NCBI GenBank assembly: GCA_020053305.1
Contig: JAGVNJ010000041.1
Coordinates: forward strand, 1-61,109
Length of the DNA: 61,109 nucleotides
Source: Candidatus Edwardsiibacteriota bacterium
GTDB taxonomy: Bacteria; Edwardsbacteria; AC1; EtOH8
Direction of reading: 5' to 3'
The stretch's first letter is position 1. Every line of letters starts with the position of its first letter. A program made the position numbers and the translations under genes. Positions 47,693 to 57,592 of the stretch are shown piece after piece. The notes beneath the pieces are model-generated. The model saw nothing but the letters and a program-made list of their open reading frames with translations, was not told the origin of the DNA and ran no database searches.

Positions 47693-47995
47693 TCAAGGTT
47701 TCCACCGGTATCTTTCCATGTCCACCCTGCCGTACAGATCGAACTCCACCCCTTCACTCTCCAGCATGACCCGCTGTTCCTCGTAACCCTGGCCGGGCTT
47801 TAGGGATATCTGGCCTTTGCCGTTTATCACCCGGTGCCAGGGGAGTTTTTCCTTGCCGGAGCTGGAATGCAGCAGCCAGATCACCGCCCGGGCCCCGCGG
47901 GGGTTTCCGGCCAGGGCCGCGATCTGCCCGTAGGTGGCCACCTTGCCGCGCGGGATGCGTTTGATGATGGAGATTATTTGTTCGGAGAAGGTCAT
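47693..47995 (-). CDS. Alkyltransferase-like protein (ATL), Cys-to-Trp active site
   Basis: The 100-residue protein is the DNA-binding domain of the O6-alkylguanine-DNA alkyltransferase family: FSEQIISIIKRIPRGKVATY, GQIAALAGNPRGARAV, and the active-site motif PWHRVINGKG, where Trp53 replaces the acceptor Cys of PCHRV. So it cannot accept an alkyl group; ATL proteins flag O6-alkylguanine for nucleotide-excision repair. Length (about 100) fits ATLs rather than MGMT. The 5' end of this gene also occurs at 54122 and 54799. Confidence 0.92.
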   Translation of the reverse strand: MTFSEQIISIIKRIPRGKVATYGQIAALAGNPRGARAVIWLLHSSSGKEKLPWHRVINGKGQISLKPGQGYEEQRVMLESEGVEFDLYGRVDMERYRWKP

Positions 47996-48019
47996 GCGAT
48001 ATGCTACGGTTTATTGTTG

Positions 48020-48093
48020 GGACACGGCGTGCCGTGTCCTTACCTTTTGCAAGAGACCAAAGCGACGTCCAGTGCTGGTCGCCGCTTCTTTTT
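48020..48093 (-). repeat. Two hairpins between the ATL gene and the slipin fragment
   Basis: GGACACGGC/GCCGTGTCC (48020-48039) is a perfect 9-bp stem. GCGACGTCCAG...CTGGTCGCCGC (48062-48085) is a decayed copy of the GCGGCC-type hairpin found at 53972, 54930 and 56794. Confidence 0.5.
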
Positions 48094-48099
48094 GTCCGG

Positions 48100-48237
48100 T
48101 TATTTATTCTCGTTCTTGTCCAGTATCTGGGTGAACAGCTTCATGAACTCTAACGGGAGCGAGAAGACAATGGTGGAATTCTTATCCACTACGATCTCGG
48201 TCAGTATCTGCAGGCAGCGCAGCCGCAGGGTTACCGG
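48100..48237 (-). pseudogene. 3' fragment of a slipin (SPFH) gene
   Basis: On the minus strand this stretch reads PVTLRLRCLQILTEIVVDKN, then FSLPLEFMKLFTQILDKNEN and a stop, matching the last 45 residues of the intact slipin at 56831-57592 ([40 protein letters not shown]). Homology stops abruptly at 48237, inside the SWIM gene end. The rest of the slipin gene is missing here. The stop codon of the SWIM gene lies within this fragment. Confidence 0.8.
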
Positions 48238-49124
48238 CGTTTCTTTGGTCCGCCGCCCAACGCCCGGCGTTCCGCCGCTGTCGCGACGGCGCCATACCAG
48301 CCGGCAATCAAATCCGCCATATTTTGAGAACTGACAGCGAACTGCGCCGGTCCCAGCATCCGGACAACGGCTGCGGAGGCCTCGGGGGATTTCATGTTGA
48401 ACCCGATCCCGGAGGCCTGTTTGTCAGCCTTCCAGAAATTTTCCAGACAATCCTCCAACGATCTCAACGTCTCCACCGGCGCTTCGGCCTCCGTGTGACG
48501 TTGAGGCGCCAGGTTCTCGGCGGCTTCCGACCGCCGTTTTCGCAACTCTTCGATGATCCGGCCCTTGTCCCGCCCCCGCAGGGCAAACAGCACGAAGGGA
48601 TCGCGGTCGAACATCTCGCCCAGCACATAGTAGACCGCGGCTAGATGCTTGCAGGGATTGGCCCAGTCCGGGCAGTCGCATTCCGTGGCCAGGTCCTTGG
48701 GCGATTGCGGGAAAAGCGGGCACTTGGCGGCGGCGAAAGATTCCTCGATGGTCCGCGGCATTTCTCCTGCCAGCAGCTTGGCGGCAAACACGGCCTTTGA
48801 GGCCATGGCCTTGATGGCCTTGTTCCACTGCCGGTCGGACAGCGGCTTCAGCCGGATCACCACGATATAAGGCTGCCGGGCAGAGCCCTGCACCAGGGCT
48901 TTGACGGCGCCCGGCTCGATCCCGGCCTTGATCACCTGTCCGCTGCGGGCGTAGGAGCGGCCCCGGGCCAGGCGGGTGCCCATGTTGAACGACTCCAGCA
49001 CCCCGATCCAACGCTTGGACCACCAGGTGTCTCCCACCGCGCCCTTTTTCATCTGCACCTTGATGCCGTTGGCCGGTCGCCGTGGTTTCGGCTTATAGTA
49101 AAATGAATCTCTCCAATATGCCAT
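48231..49124 (-). CDS. SWIM zinc-finger protein (YwqB-like)
   Basis: From the ATG at 49124 (AAGGAG eight bases upstream) the product has 297 residues. The SWIM motif CDCPDWANPCKHLAAVYYVL (CxCx(n)CxH) lies near residue 164. The N-terminal half (RFWWSKR-like basic region, TRLARGRSYARSGQVIKAGI) matches SWIM proteins that partner SNF2 helicases, such as YwqB beside YwqA in Bacillus. Here the SNF2 gene lies 1.7 kb upstream on the same strand, separated by a DUF2293 gene and a decayed gene. Its last codons run into the slipin fragment, so the natural C-terminus may be altered. Confidence 0.85.
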   Translation of the reverse strand: MAYWRDSFYYKPKPRRPANGIKVQMKKGAVGDTWWSKRWIGVLESFNMGTRLARGRSYARSGQVIKAGIEPGAVKALVQGSARQPYIVVIRLKPLSDRQWNKAIKAMASKAVFAAKLLAGEMPRTIEESFAAAKCPLFPQSPKDLATECDCPDWANPCKHLAAVYYVLGEMFDRDPFVLFALRGRDKGRIIEELRKRRSEAAENLAPQRHTEAEAPVETLRSLEDCLENFWKADKQASGIGFNMKSPEASAAVVRMLGPAQFAVSSQNMADLIAGWYGAVATAAERRALGGGPKKRR

Positions 49125-53938: not shown

Positions 53939-54121
53939 GCTTGCGCCTATATATCAATGAGATGATTAGATCGGCGGCCAGTAATGGCCGCCGCTTTCGT
54001 TTATTCTACCGACGTAATACTACGGTCGTAAGGCCGTAGATGTAGTGACTCCTGCAAAGCAGGGCGGATGAAGTCTGAAATTAGGTCAAAGATGCTATGG
54101 CCGTAAGGCCATAGTCATTCA
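53939..54121. other. Hairpin-rich gap upstream of the SNF2 gene
   Basis: The gap contains the GGCGGCCA/TGGCCGCC hairpin at 53972-53993 and two related palindromes: CTACGGTCGTAAGGCCGTAG at 54020-54039 and CTATGGCCGTAAGGCCATAG at 54095-54114. The two palindromes share GGNCGTAAGGCC and are followed by ATGTAGTGACT and TCATTCACT. No gene is seen. The ATL gene stub begins at 54122. Confidence 0.6.
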
Positions 54122-54193
54122 CTGCCCGTAGGAGGCCACCTTGTCGCGCGGGATACGTTTGATGATGGAGATTATTTGGGTGGAGAAGGTCAT
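54122..54193 (-). pseudogene. 5' stub of the ATL gene, copy 2 (24 codons)
   Basis: The minus strand reads MTFSTQIISIIKRIPRDKVA, then SYGQ and a stop (TGA). It matches the first 72 bases of the ATL gene at 47924-47995 with about eight differences, then diverges. It has no PWHRV region. The stub is in the same orientation as the intact gene. Confidence 0.8.
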
Positions 54194-54243: not shown

Positions 54244-54372
54244 TTATAAGTTTCGTGGTTTATAGGATGTTGAGTTGGTAAGGTTTATAATTTTTCCTAC
54301 TATGACCCAGATACCTTCATCATGAAGCCGTTTGATGACAGCATCAAAAACCTGATAGTTATTTTCGTTTAA
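54244..54372 (-). pseudogene. Remnant of a nucleotidyltransferase (toxin-like) gene
   Basis: The minus strand reads NYQVFDAVIKRLHDEGIWVI, then VGK and unrelated residues to a stop at 54244. This matches the N-terminus of pol-beta-like nucleotidyltransferases (QVFDEVIKRL, WVLVGG), which commonly follow small DUF6788-like genes in toxin-antitoxin-type pairs. The active-site GSxxLxLxG...DxDxD section is missing. The frame overlaps the end of the gene at 54359-54673 by 14 bases. Start codon absent. Confidence 0.5.
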
Positions 54373-54673
54373 CGAGCTTTTCAAGTTTTATAATATCCTT
54401 AACAACGCTTTGAAGCTTTTTTTGGTGAGCCTGGCGCAAATGCACGTTTTCTTTCAGTTTTATAACCTGTTCCGATTTTTCCGGACCAACATACTTGAAA
54501 ACCACCCGATCTCCCTGCCGAAAGGCCAGATATACATATACGCCACTGGAACGCCGCTTATAGGAAATACTGCCCTTGGGGCATTGGGAAATATGATCCC
54601 GGTATTTTTTCTCCAAGGCCTGTAAGCGCCCAAGTTCTTCCGATAGAATGCTTTTTACAACGTGATAAGCCAT
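54359..54673 (-). CDS. DUF6788-like small protein, antitoxin-type partner
   Basis: The 104-residue protein (MAYHVVKSILSEELGRLQAL, then KKYRDHISQCPKGSISYKRR) has a central three-strand motif SGVYVYLAFRQGDRVVFKYV and a helical, Lys-rich C-terminus. This layout resembles the small proteins (DUF6788-like) that precede nucleotidyltransferase genes in probable toxin-antitoxin modules. The stop codon overlaps the remnant of such a gene at 54244. It has a strong own promoter (54702-54730) with boxes. The region is AT-rich compared with the flanking high-GC genes. The family call is from memory, so moderate confidence. Confidence 0.6.
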   Translation of the reverse strand: MAYHVVKSILSEELGRLQALEKKYRDHISQCPKGSISYKRRSSGVYVYLAFRQGDRVVFKYVGPEKSEQVIKLKENVHLRQAHQKKLQSVVKDIIKLEKLVKRK

Positions 54674-54680
54674 ATAATAT

Positions 54681-54776
54681 GCCTAACAATTAGTTGTTTT
54701 GATTATATAATGTTAGGCAACAATTGTCAATAGAAAAATGCCTAACATTAAACATATATTCGGACATTGTTAGGCA
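54681..54776 (-). promoter_or_regulatory. Consensus promoter with four alternating octamer boxes
   Basis: On the minus strand TTGACA (54725-54730) and TATAAT (54702-54707) are 17 nt apart, a perfect sigma-70 pair for the gene at 54359. The octamer TGTTAGGC or its complement GCCTAACA occurs at 54681, 54711, 54740 and 54769, alternating in orientation with steps of 30, 29 and 29 bp. One box lies in the promoter spacer and one in the leader just before the ATG. They look like binding sites of an autoregulator or repeats of an element end. Confidence 0.7.
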
Positions 54777-54798: not shown

Positions 54799-54911
54799 AC
54801 CGCCCGGGCGCCTCTGGGATTGCCGGCCAGGGCCGCGATCTGGCCGTAGCGGGCTACTTTGCCGCGCGGGATGCGTTTGATGATGGAGATTATTTGGGAG
54901 GAGAAAGTCAT
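54799..54911 (-). pseudogene. 5' stub of the ATL gene, copy 3 (38 codons)
   Basis: The minus strand reads MTFSSQIISIIKRIPRGKVA, then RYGQIAALAGNPRGARAV and a stop (TAA). It matches the ATL gene at 47883-47995 over 113 bases and diverges exactly after GCCCGGGCGGT. No PWHRV region. It directly precedes the hairpin at 54930 and the AT-rich gene. Confidence 0.85.
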
Positions 54912-54929
54912 GTTCTATACATAATAAAT

Positions 54930-54951
54930 TGGCGGCTATTATTGACCGTCA
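54930..54951. repeat. Degenerate GCGGC hairpin, copy 3
   Basis: TGGCGGCTATTATTGACCGTCA resembles the hairpins at 53972 and 56794 but with weaker pairing. It overlaps the final codons of the AT-rich gene on the minus strand (stop at 54939). Confidence 0.35.
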
Positions 54952-56777
54952 CTTTTGTTTAAATATTTTGCTAAGTATATAAATGTAATTGGTTTGTTAC
55001 CGTAGGTTCTTATGCTGGCAATCCCGTTCTTATTAATGTCTACAACATGTCCATATTGTTCAAATACCCAGGTTTTATTTGATTCTAAATCATAAAATAC
55101 AGGGAACTTGCTTGTAAAGCCCAAATATTTGTTATTTTCTGACATTATAATATCGTCTGTCCCAAATGTTTCGTATTTAAATATTTCAGTTCCATTTTCG
55201 TCGAACATAATTAAACTATCTGACTCCCTTGAACCTATCGATTTTTCATTCAAAAAATTAAAAGAGATGTATTTCCCGTCCCGGCTAATAATGTGTCTAC
55301 AAATATTTGCATATTTCTTTACCCATAAAGATTGACCCTTTTCATTGTAATAAGTAATTCTGGTTGATTGTGTAATTGGATCTTCAATCCCACCTGTTTC
55401 CGGATTTTCTTTAATAAATTCTTCGGTCATTTCATACCAGACAACTGTATCCTGCAATATTATGGCACGCTTGGCGTTTTTGCTTACGGCTGCCCTTGAA
55501 CTGATATTAATTTCAGCCGGTATGCCTTTGCCACTACTGCCAGGTATTTTGTAACTGCCGGCTTTTCCTTCAGACAATAAAGGTATTGTTTTTATAATGG
55601 AATCATTTTCATTGTAAAAAATAACAGAAGGGTTATAGCCGTGCCAGGGTTTTTGTTTTATTAAATTGTTAGTTAAAACACGGAAACTATCATTTAAATT
55701 ATTTTCTTTAAGTTGACTATAGTTTGATAGATTAAGCATTTTTAATGCTTTGGGGCGGACATAGTTGTTATAAAGATCAAGATATGCCTCTTTTGCCGCT
55801 TTAAATCTAACGGTATCTGTATCACTTTCAACAAGGGTTATTTCAACTTCTTCAAGAGCTATCCGGGGTCCTTTTGTTAAATATATTATTGTGCTGTCTG
55901 TTTTTGCCTCAACCGAGTCTTGAGGGATAATATATTTTACACTATGGGTTTGTATCTCGTTGAATGTTGTTTCAAGGGTTTGTGGTGAATTGTTGATATT
56001 ATATTTTATAATGATGTCGCCTGCATCAGTAATGTCCAAACCTGTCTTTTGGTCTATAGTGCTCACAATATTAATGCTATCATTGTCAATCAAATTGGCA
56101 ACAAGCCATTCGCTTGTATCTGTCTGGGGGTATACTTCGCATACTTTAAAATATTTGCTGTCTGGTGTGGATGCATAACCATAGGTGGTATGTATTTTAA
56201 GTGTACGTTGCAAAACGGTTGTGCCGGCTTTATTTATTATTTGTATTATTTCTGTAGGTTCAGAATCACAAATAATAGTATCCGGAATTGTTATTATTAT
56301 GCTTGATGCGTTGGGGGCGATTTGGGTTATATGGCATCCGGTTGGTCTGTAGTCGTTCGAAAGCACTGTTATTTCCCAAAGGGTATCCTTGGGCATCGCC
56401 AATAAAGCCAACTTTTCACTTATCCAATATTTAATAGAATCACCGCTTGATAATCGTGCTATCAAATAGTCAGAAGACTTTATTACACCATATGTGCCGT
56501 TTGGGGCGGTATGCATTTCCCGGTTCTTAATGTGGTAGTAATAATTCTTTCCGATTTTATATTTATCTGCAATATAACGATAAAATGTTGACTCTGTGGT
56601 ATCGCTTGTGGTGTCACTTATTTCTTTTGCCCAAGAATCTGAAGGGGGTTCAATATTCTTGTAAGGGGAAAGAATATCGAACACAGAAATATCCCCCTTT
56701 TTATTTAATGCTGCAAGCCAATAAATACTGCCGGTGAATATAAGGGTAATAACTATTATAATAGATATTTTTTTCAT
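54939..56777 (-). CDS. AT-rich secreted or membrane-anchored protein, unknown
   Basis: The 612-residue protein begins MKKISIIIVITLIFTGSIYW, a signal anchor or signal peptide. The rest is rich in D, S, T, I and N, with many beta-strand-like segments: PDSKYFKVCEVYPQTDTSEW, NRE-type loops, GKYISFNFLNEKSIGSRES, DIIMSENNKYLGFTSKFPVF. The last third has repeated SxDGKYxxF/SENNKYLGF-type elements that suggest a beta-propeller. It is far more AT-rich than all neighbours, so it was probably acquired. It lies between the third ATL stub and the slipin hairpin. No family recognised. Confidence 0.65.
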   Translation of the reverse strand: MKKISIIIVITLIFTGSIYWLAALNKKGDISVFDILSPYKNIEPPSDSWAKEISDTTSDTTESTFYRYIADKYKIGKNYYYHIKNREMHTAPNGTYGVIKSSDYLIARLSSGDSIKYWISEKLALLAMPKDTLWEITVLSNDYRPTGCHITQIAPNASSIIITIPDTIICDSEPTEIIQIINKAGTTVLQRTLKIHTTYGYASTPDSKYFKVCEVYPQTDTSEWLVANLIDNDSINIVSTIDQKTGLDITDAGDIIIKYNINNSPQTLETTFNEIQTHSVKYIIPQDSVEAKTDSTIIYLTKGPRIALEEVEITLVESDTDTVRFKAAKEAYLDLYNNYVRPKALKMLNLSNYSQLKENNLNDSFRVLTNNLIKQKPWHGYNPSVIFYNENDSIIKTIPLLSEGKAGSYKIPGSSGKGIPAEINISSRAAVSKNAKRAIILQDTVVWYEMTEEFIKENPETGGIEDPITQSTRITYYNEKGQSLWVKKYANICRHIISRDGKYISFNFLNEKSIGSRESDSLIMFDENGTEIFKYETFGTDDIIMSENNKYLGFTSKFPVFYDLESNKTWVFEQYGHVVDINKNGIASIRTYGNKPITFIYLAKYLNKSDGQ

Positions 56778-56789
56778 AAACTTATCAGT

Positions 56790-56817
56790 AAAAGCGGCGG
56801 CCGTTGCTGGCCGCCGC
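56790..56817 (-). terminator. Terminator after the slipin gene
   Basis: GCGGCGGCC (56794-56802) pairs perfectly with GGCCGCCGC (56809-56817), and a run of four T follows on the minus strand. It lies 14 bases after the slipin stop. It is the best-preserved copy of the hairpin also found at 48062 and 53972. Confidence 0.8.
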
Positions 56818-56830
56818 TTCTGTTTTCCGT

Positions 56831-57592
56831 TTACGCCTTCTTCTCGTTCCGGTCAATTATCTGGGTAAAATACTTCATAAACTCTATCGGCAGGGGGAAG
56901 ATGATGGTGGAATTCTTCTCCACCGCGATCTCGGTCAGGGTCTGCAGGTAGCGCAGCTGCACGGTCACCGGCTCCTGGGCCATCACCGAGGCCGCATCCC
57001 GCAGTTTGGACGATGCCTGGAATTCGCCGTCGGCGTGGATCACCTTGGCCCGGCGCTCGCGCTCGGCCTCGGCCTGCTTGGCCATGGCCCGGCGCATGCC
57101 CTCCGGCAGGTCCACATCCTTGACCTCCACCGCCTGGACCTTGATGCCCCAGGGATCGGTGCGATCATCGATCACCTTCTGCAGGGTCTGGTTGATTTTC
57201 TCCCGGTTGGAGAGCAGTTCGTCCAGTTCGTGCTCGCCCAGAATGGAGCGCAGGGTGGTCTGGCCCATCTGGCTGGTGGCGTACATGTAATCCTCCACCG
57301 CGATGATGGCCTTGTCGGGCTGGAACACCTGGAAGTACATCACGGCGTTCACTTTCACCGAGACGTTGTCCTTGGTGATCACCTCCTGGGCCGGCACGTC
57401 CAGGGCGATGGTGCGCAGGGTCACCTTGACCATCTTTTCGAACATGGGGATCAGGATGATCAGCCCCGGGCCCCGGGTGCCCACATAGCGGCCCAGCCGG
57501 AAAACCACCCCCCGTTCGTACTCCCGCAGGATCTTGATGGTATTGACCAGAATGAACAGCACGAAGATAATTAAGACAATGTAACCCGTCAT
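56831..57592 (-). CDS. Slipin (SPFH/stomatin family)
   Basis: The 253-residue protein has one N-terminal membrane helix ([17 protein letters not shown]) and a full SPFH/band-7 domain: [60 protein letters not shown], and the coiled-coil region with [20 protein letters not shown]. It lies on the same strand as the NfeD gene, its usual partner, but a lipoprotein gene sits between. Its 3' end is duplicated at 48100-48237. Confidence 0.93.

Follow-up and report, generated by a model that had tools for sequence, protein, structure and literature searches.

Inverted boxes over the promoter of an antitoxin-like gene: a candidate autoregulatory operator in a widespread, undescribed protein family

Within the window, that is, the whole stretch of 61,109 bp of DNA analysed here, four short boxes in alternating orientation lie upstream of and across the promoter of a gene (54359-54673, minus strand) encoding a 104-residue, antitoxin-like putative DNA-binding regulator, delineated by its open reading frame, its homologues and an AlphaFold2 model. 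Comparison of sequences across phyla suggests, with a probability of about 0.8, that the gene is autoregulated through this array as its operator, that the encoded protein belongs to an antitoxin-like family of DNA-binding proteins, so far undescribed, whose genes normally directly precede and overlap that of a nucleotidyltransferase (NTase) of the NTP_transf_8 family, and that the protein binds the boxes as inverted pairs and represses its own transcription.

The 61 kb window contains four exact copies of the 8-mer TGTTAGGC/GCCTAACA, all located at 54681-54775. Specifically, the gene-proximal box 1 (54681-54688, minus strand) reads TGTTAGGC on the strand of the gene and lies downstream of the likely transcription start and ahead of the ATG (54671-54673), while box 2 (54711-54718, plus strand) reads GCCTAACA on that strand and lies inside the 17-bp promoter spacer; together these boxes form a proximal inverted pair. 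Box 3 (54740-54747, minus strand), located upstream of the -35 element, and box 4 (54768-54775, plus strand) are the inner and outer members of a distal inverted pair. The promoter itself is a perfect sigma-70 promoter on the minus strand, TTGACA-17-TATAAT, with its -35 element at 54725-54730 and its -10 element at 54702-54707, both of which are conserved in the family. The perfect promoter, the box within its spacer and the box ahead of the ATG had all been described in a first-pass annotation of this DNA and are borne out here. That annotation had also placed the boxes at 54681, 54711, 54740 and 54769 in regular steps of 29-30 bp; the first three positions and the first two steps (30 and 29 bp) stand, while the last box starts at 54768, giving a final step of 28 bp.

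A chance origin of the array is negligible. The 8-mer is found at a density of 1.34 per 61 kb in shuffled versions of the window, and the probability that three further copies fall within 95 bp of a given copy is approximately 1.5e-9, or approximately 1e-4 when any starting 8-mer is allowed. Additionally, the boxes extend into longer matches, such as the perfect 12-nt pair TAATGTTAGGCA/TGCCTAACATTA, and no second GCCTAACA-N10..40-TGTTAGGC pair is present elsewhere in the 2.59 Mb assembly.

Homologues of the regulator were collected by searching with the window protein, followed by a profile, over 386 genomes, together with a scan of named genomes, yielding a family set of 57 distinct loci for which 150 bp or more of upstream sequence was available. 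Named members are found in Omnitrophota, Elusimicrobiota, Nitrospirota, Margulisiibacteriota, Zixiibacteriota, Saganbacteria and Clostridia. The window regulator matches the family profile at 5.8e-35 and 120.7 bits, values obtained with a profile that included the window sequence, and single-sequence matches independent of that profile were obtained in genomes G003 (7.4e-26) and G081 (2.4e-15). As a sole query against genome contigs, the window protein returned no match, and the alignment A1 was too divergent for a pattern search; the central family member L020 worked as a query. Searches of the phyla centred on G052, G185 and G138, each covering two to three genomes, added no members, and no regulator homologue was detected in phage and viral collections. 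Among plasmids, one distant match was found, on a Subdoligranulum plasmid, with no clear pair in its upstream region. Viral contigs carrying TGCCTAACA-N-TGTTAGGCA pairs gave 23 matches, none with the regulator and most of them terminators or hairpins.

The architecture of the array is conserved across this family. A scan independent of the letters of the window, in which inverted 10-mers matching at nine or more of ten positions were sought at a step of 28-33 bp within 160 bp upstream of each gene, identified an inverted pair in 54 of the 57 loci (0.98 expected in dinucleotide shuffles), and all four boxes alternate in 35 of the 57. Of 84 steps within a pair, 76 measure exactly 30 bp, while the step between pairs is mostly 27-29 bp, such that boxes 1 to 4 take family positions of about -24, -54, -82 and -112, respectively. 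When loci are aligned on the proximal box, the arrangement TTGACA-4nt-box-3nt-TATAAT is conserved at approximately 75-91% per base; box 2 thus mostly stands at a distance of 4 nt from the -35 element upstream of it and 3 nt from the -10 element downstream, and its partner directly precedes the Shine-Dalgarno sequence in most loci. No such promoter elements surround the boxes of the distal pair in the family alignment.

In contrast to this fixed geometry, the letters of the half-sites differ by lineage: TTGCCTAACA is found in the genus of the window, and TTACCATACA, TTACCTTACA, TTACACTACA, TTACCAGACA and TTAACCAACA elsewhere, the commonest form by a simple weight matrix being TTACC[C/T]AACA. 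Lineage-specific half-sites are expected if each operator changes together with its own regulator, and the shift of box letters along with the protein lends further support to an operator. The first-pass annotation had proposed a repressor-type array over the gene's own promoter, perhaps bound by the gene's product, to be doubted should homologues keep the promoter and lack the boxes; the opposite is observed, with boxes in nearly all loci, and the search for arrays upstream of homologues that it had suggested reveals the same architecture, promoter embedding included, in many phyla with differing letters. Taken together, these data strongly favour the operator interpretation.

The nearest relative provides a particularly close comparison. 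Among ten genomes of this phylum, a homologue is found only in G003, a member of the same genus, where the protein shares 45% identity with the window regulator and its gene occupies the same interval between an alkyltransferase-like (ATL) gene and an SPFH gene. Four boxes, at steps of 30, 39 and 30 bp, lie over the same TTGACA-17-TATAAT promoter, and the boxes of the distal pair are identical to those of the window while the spacer between them has diverged. The step between pairs is 39 bp in G003 versus 29 bp in the window, and this 10-bp difference corresponds to one helical turn. An NTP_transf_8 nucleotidyltransferase gene follows the G003 regulator gene and overlaps it. The interval of G003 also contains a tRNA-Ser (gct) gene (L004 2029-2102) between the array and the SPFH gene, which is absent from the corresponding stretch of the window, a difference consistent with an island site.

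A mechanism can be proposed on the basis of this geometry. A dimer of the protein, or two copies of it, would bind each inverted pair, probably via a three-stranded beta-sheet, with 10-bp half-sites 30 bp apart as the binding unit (TTGCCTAACA here, TTACCNNACA in general). Since the two proximal boxes flank the -10 element and fill the promoter spacer and the 5' untranslated region, including the start region, occupancy of this pair is proposed to block RNA polymerase and hence transcription. The distal pair lies one phased step further upstream and may strengthen or tune repression, and the regular phasing of the boxes suggests that binding to the array is cooperative.

The regulator itself offers few clues from known families. 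No above-cut-off match was found for the 104-residue protein in Pfam, NCBIfam or PHROGs, and its homologues are likewise without a Pfam or NCBIfam family. The AlphaFold2 model (pLDDT 93, from a 50-row alignment) predicts a helix at residues 2-29, strands at 35-41, 44-53 and 56-64, and a helix at 68-103. A fold search with this model returned no significant PDB or viral structure match, so that a DNA-binding role is not established by fold; weak matches were to prefoldins and integrase arm-type DNA-binding domains. Within the sheet, residue 50 tracks operator position 7 across 21 representatives sharing less than 65% identity: alanine or valine accompanies A at position 7 in 10 of 11 cases, locus L077 being the exception, and other residues accompany a different base in 10 of 10 (Fisher 3.4e-5). 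This association is not significant once relatedness is corrected for and, because only about five independent switches occur on the tree, is a lead rather than a result. A broader and more tentative proposal, against which the odds lie somewhat, is that the modular three-stranded beta-sheet between two long helices represents a novel type of DNA-reading domain for antitoxins, found in those of two or more NTase toxin families (NTP_transf_8 and AbiEii) as well as in Fic-domain proteins, and that single sheet residues such as residue 50, reading operator position 7, rewire its specificity and thereby give the NTase operon of each lineage an insulated four-box operator.

The genomic partner of the regulator is highly consistent. 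An NTase of PF12281 (NTP_transf_8) is encoded directly downstream in 50 of the 57 loci, usually overlapping the regulator gene, and three of the remaining seven loci end at a contig edge; all 25 partner NTases scanned match PF12281 and none is AbiEii. At one locus (L075) regulator and NTase are naturally fused, and at another (L076) a different NTase occupies the partner position. Several partner NTases are frame-broken or truncated, an apparent excess that is biased because homologues were found through intact regulator genes. The modelled NTase (pLDDT 89) resembles nucleotidyltransferase folds such as those of the MenT1 toxin (8an4, E 1.5e-4) and ANT(2'') enzymes, and toxicity of the NTase, which the regulator would neutralise, is therefore plausible.

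The window genome (G000) departs from this arrangement, with no PF12281 gene in the window or anywhere else in the genome. A possible remnant of the start of a lost NTase gene (VFDAVIKRLHDEGIWVIVG, 54295-54351, minus strand), which follows the stop codon of the regulator, has the frame and place seen in relatives, but its score of only 0.7 bits lends it no statistical support. We infer that the window copy is an orphan family member left behind after loss of the toxin.

Whether the partner acts as a toxin bears on the name given to the regulator. In an alternative that we consider unlikely, the operon would encode a self-regulated enzyme, modifying a small molecule or nucleic acid, together with its repressor, making "antitoxin" a misnomer. 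Our literature search found no paper naming PF12281/NTP_transf_8 or DUF6922. The lack of a characterised NTP_transf_8 member in the papers searched and the resemblance of the modelled NTase to ANT(2'') aminoglycoside NTases both suit such an enzyme; a small gene overlapping the NTase gene, distributed patchily over many phyla and naturally fused to it in one case, is nevertheless reminiscent of toxin-antitoxin systems, as are intact regulators whose NTase is broken or missing and a fold and operator logic resembling those of MenT1 and AbiE.

A second alternative accepts the boxes as a real operator and assigns their binding to a complex of NTase and regulator, or to an unlinked host regulator, instead of the 104-residue protein alone. 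In many toxin-antitoxin systems it is the complex that binds the operator best, the regulator contains no recognisable classical DNA-binding domain, and another protein, for example as part of an NTase complex, could be needed for box binding. Set against this are operator letters that vary from lineage to lineage together with the linked gene, and the recurrence of the sheet module with a different NTase family having similar half-sites. An unlinked host regulator is further at odds with the presence of the pair at only this locus in the window genome, unlike the sites of a global regulator, and a complex with the perfect state of all boxes in a genome without a PF12281 NTase, although that state could also reflect recent NTase loss. 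On balance, such a binder appears improbable, and binding by the regulator itself is preferred.

The surroundings of the module show signs of recombination. ATL 5' gene fragments flank the regulator module on both sides, at 54122-54193 (minus strand) and at 54799-54912 (minus strand), the latter 23 bp beyond box 4; the intact ATL gene is at 47693-47995, and the stretch repeated from its start is 47883-47996. An SPFH gene-end fragment is likewise repeated beside the intact ATL gene (48059-48238 versus 56791-56972). The ATL-SPFH interval looks like a recombination hotspot into which modules are inserted with copies of flanking genes. Downstream of the regulator, two 23-nt hairpin-like repeats (CTACGGTCGTAAGGCCGTAG / CTATGGCCGTAAGGCCATAG) are found at 54017-54039 and 54092-54114, 75 bp apart, and between the array and the SPFH gene lies a 612-residue open reading frame (54939-56777, minus strand) with only a sub-threshold Pfam match.

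The core consensus of integron attC sites is RYYYAAC/GTTRRRY. That the boxes might mark the ends of a small mobile element as terminal or sub-terminal repeats, the other explanation offered in the first-pass annotation, or be attC-like sites, is suggested by the direct repeats of the ATL fragment and by the fit of the window's GCCTAAC...GTTAGGC to the attC core, but is very improbable, given that the array is single-copy in the 2.59 Mb genome, with no multiple repeat-bounded copies of the kind that a MITE or IS end would leave, that box distances to the -35 and -10 elements and the start codon are kept across lineages, that the attC core is not conserved over homologous loci, with half-sites such as TTACCATACA, TTACACTACA and TTAACCAACA failing to fit it, and that an Rfam scan gave no match at the array.

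An autoregulatory operator carries implications beyond this locus. Four boxes lead to a rule that can be tested in dozens of genomes and to a regulator family, hitherto unannotated, whose operator can be read and whose partner is an NTase family on which the literature search returned no papers. The upstream signature TTRCCNNACA-N20-TGTNNGGYAA over TATAAT provides a means to locate these operons, and orphan copies of the regulator, in poorly studied phyla, while the co-varying protein and operator sequences constitute a natural data set on how a beta-sheet might read DNA.

Several known systems resemble the one described here. AbiE of Streptococcus agalactiae (AbiEi/AbiEii) is a type IV toxin-antitoxin system in which the product of the upstream gene, both regulator and antitoxin, binds inverted repeats that cover the promoter of that gene; the operator is a single pair of 23-bp repeats that stand 3 bp apart (PMC3985639). 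Both systems are two-gene NTase operons with inverted repeats covering the promoter, and they differ in three respects. Firstly, the AbiE toxin belongs to DUF1814/AbiEii (PF08843), while the partner here is PF12281, and the window contains no AbiEii gene. Secondly, the regulator has no AbiEi match in Pfam or NCBIfam, its predicted helix, three-strand, helix topology differs, and the AbiEi winged-helix antitoxin is absent from the listed structure matches of its model. Thirdly, the half-sites here are 10 bp long at a 30-bp step. Since toxin family and regulator fold both test negative, the family is not AbiE. The half-site TTACACTACA (loci L009, L012, L021 and L078) is contained exactly in abiE IR2 (TGTAGTGTAA; PMC3985639), at a step of 23 bp there and 30 bp here, a match that may reflect chance, convergence or shared recognition.

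A related sheet is found in DUF6922 (PF21956) proteins encoded before AbiEii-type NTases, which have the three-stranded module in common with the regulator and lack its two long helices. Their TTAC..ACA-like palindromes have adjacent half-sites, whereas those described here are 30 bp apart. At seven loci (L125, L127, L129, L134, L136, L137 and L138) the sheet module is fused to DUF6922 upstream of AbiEii-type NTases, and short palindromes with such half-sites (e.g., TTATCACACTTTGTGTGATAA) lie just upstream. At two others (L081 and L082), a 316-residue Fic-domain protein contains the same sheet-like region close to the N-terminus, and upstream of its gene is an inverted repeat, TTAGGGAAC..GTTCCCTAA. 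The MenT NTase toxins (PMC10435456, PMC11375011) are linked to the partner NTase through the MenT1 structure noted above and belong to a different Pfam family. Nearest in architecture is Rv2827c-Rv2826c of Mycobacterium tuberculosis, in which the antitoxin binds four inverted repeats, arranged in two pairs from -1 to -131 of the start codon, with negative cooperativity by measurement (PMC7319586). As here, four inverted repeats in two pairs cover the promoter of an NTase system; the repeats of Rv2827c are 23 bp long, and its antitoxin and toxin families are unrelated to those of the operon described here.
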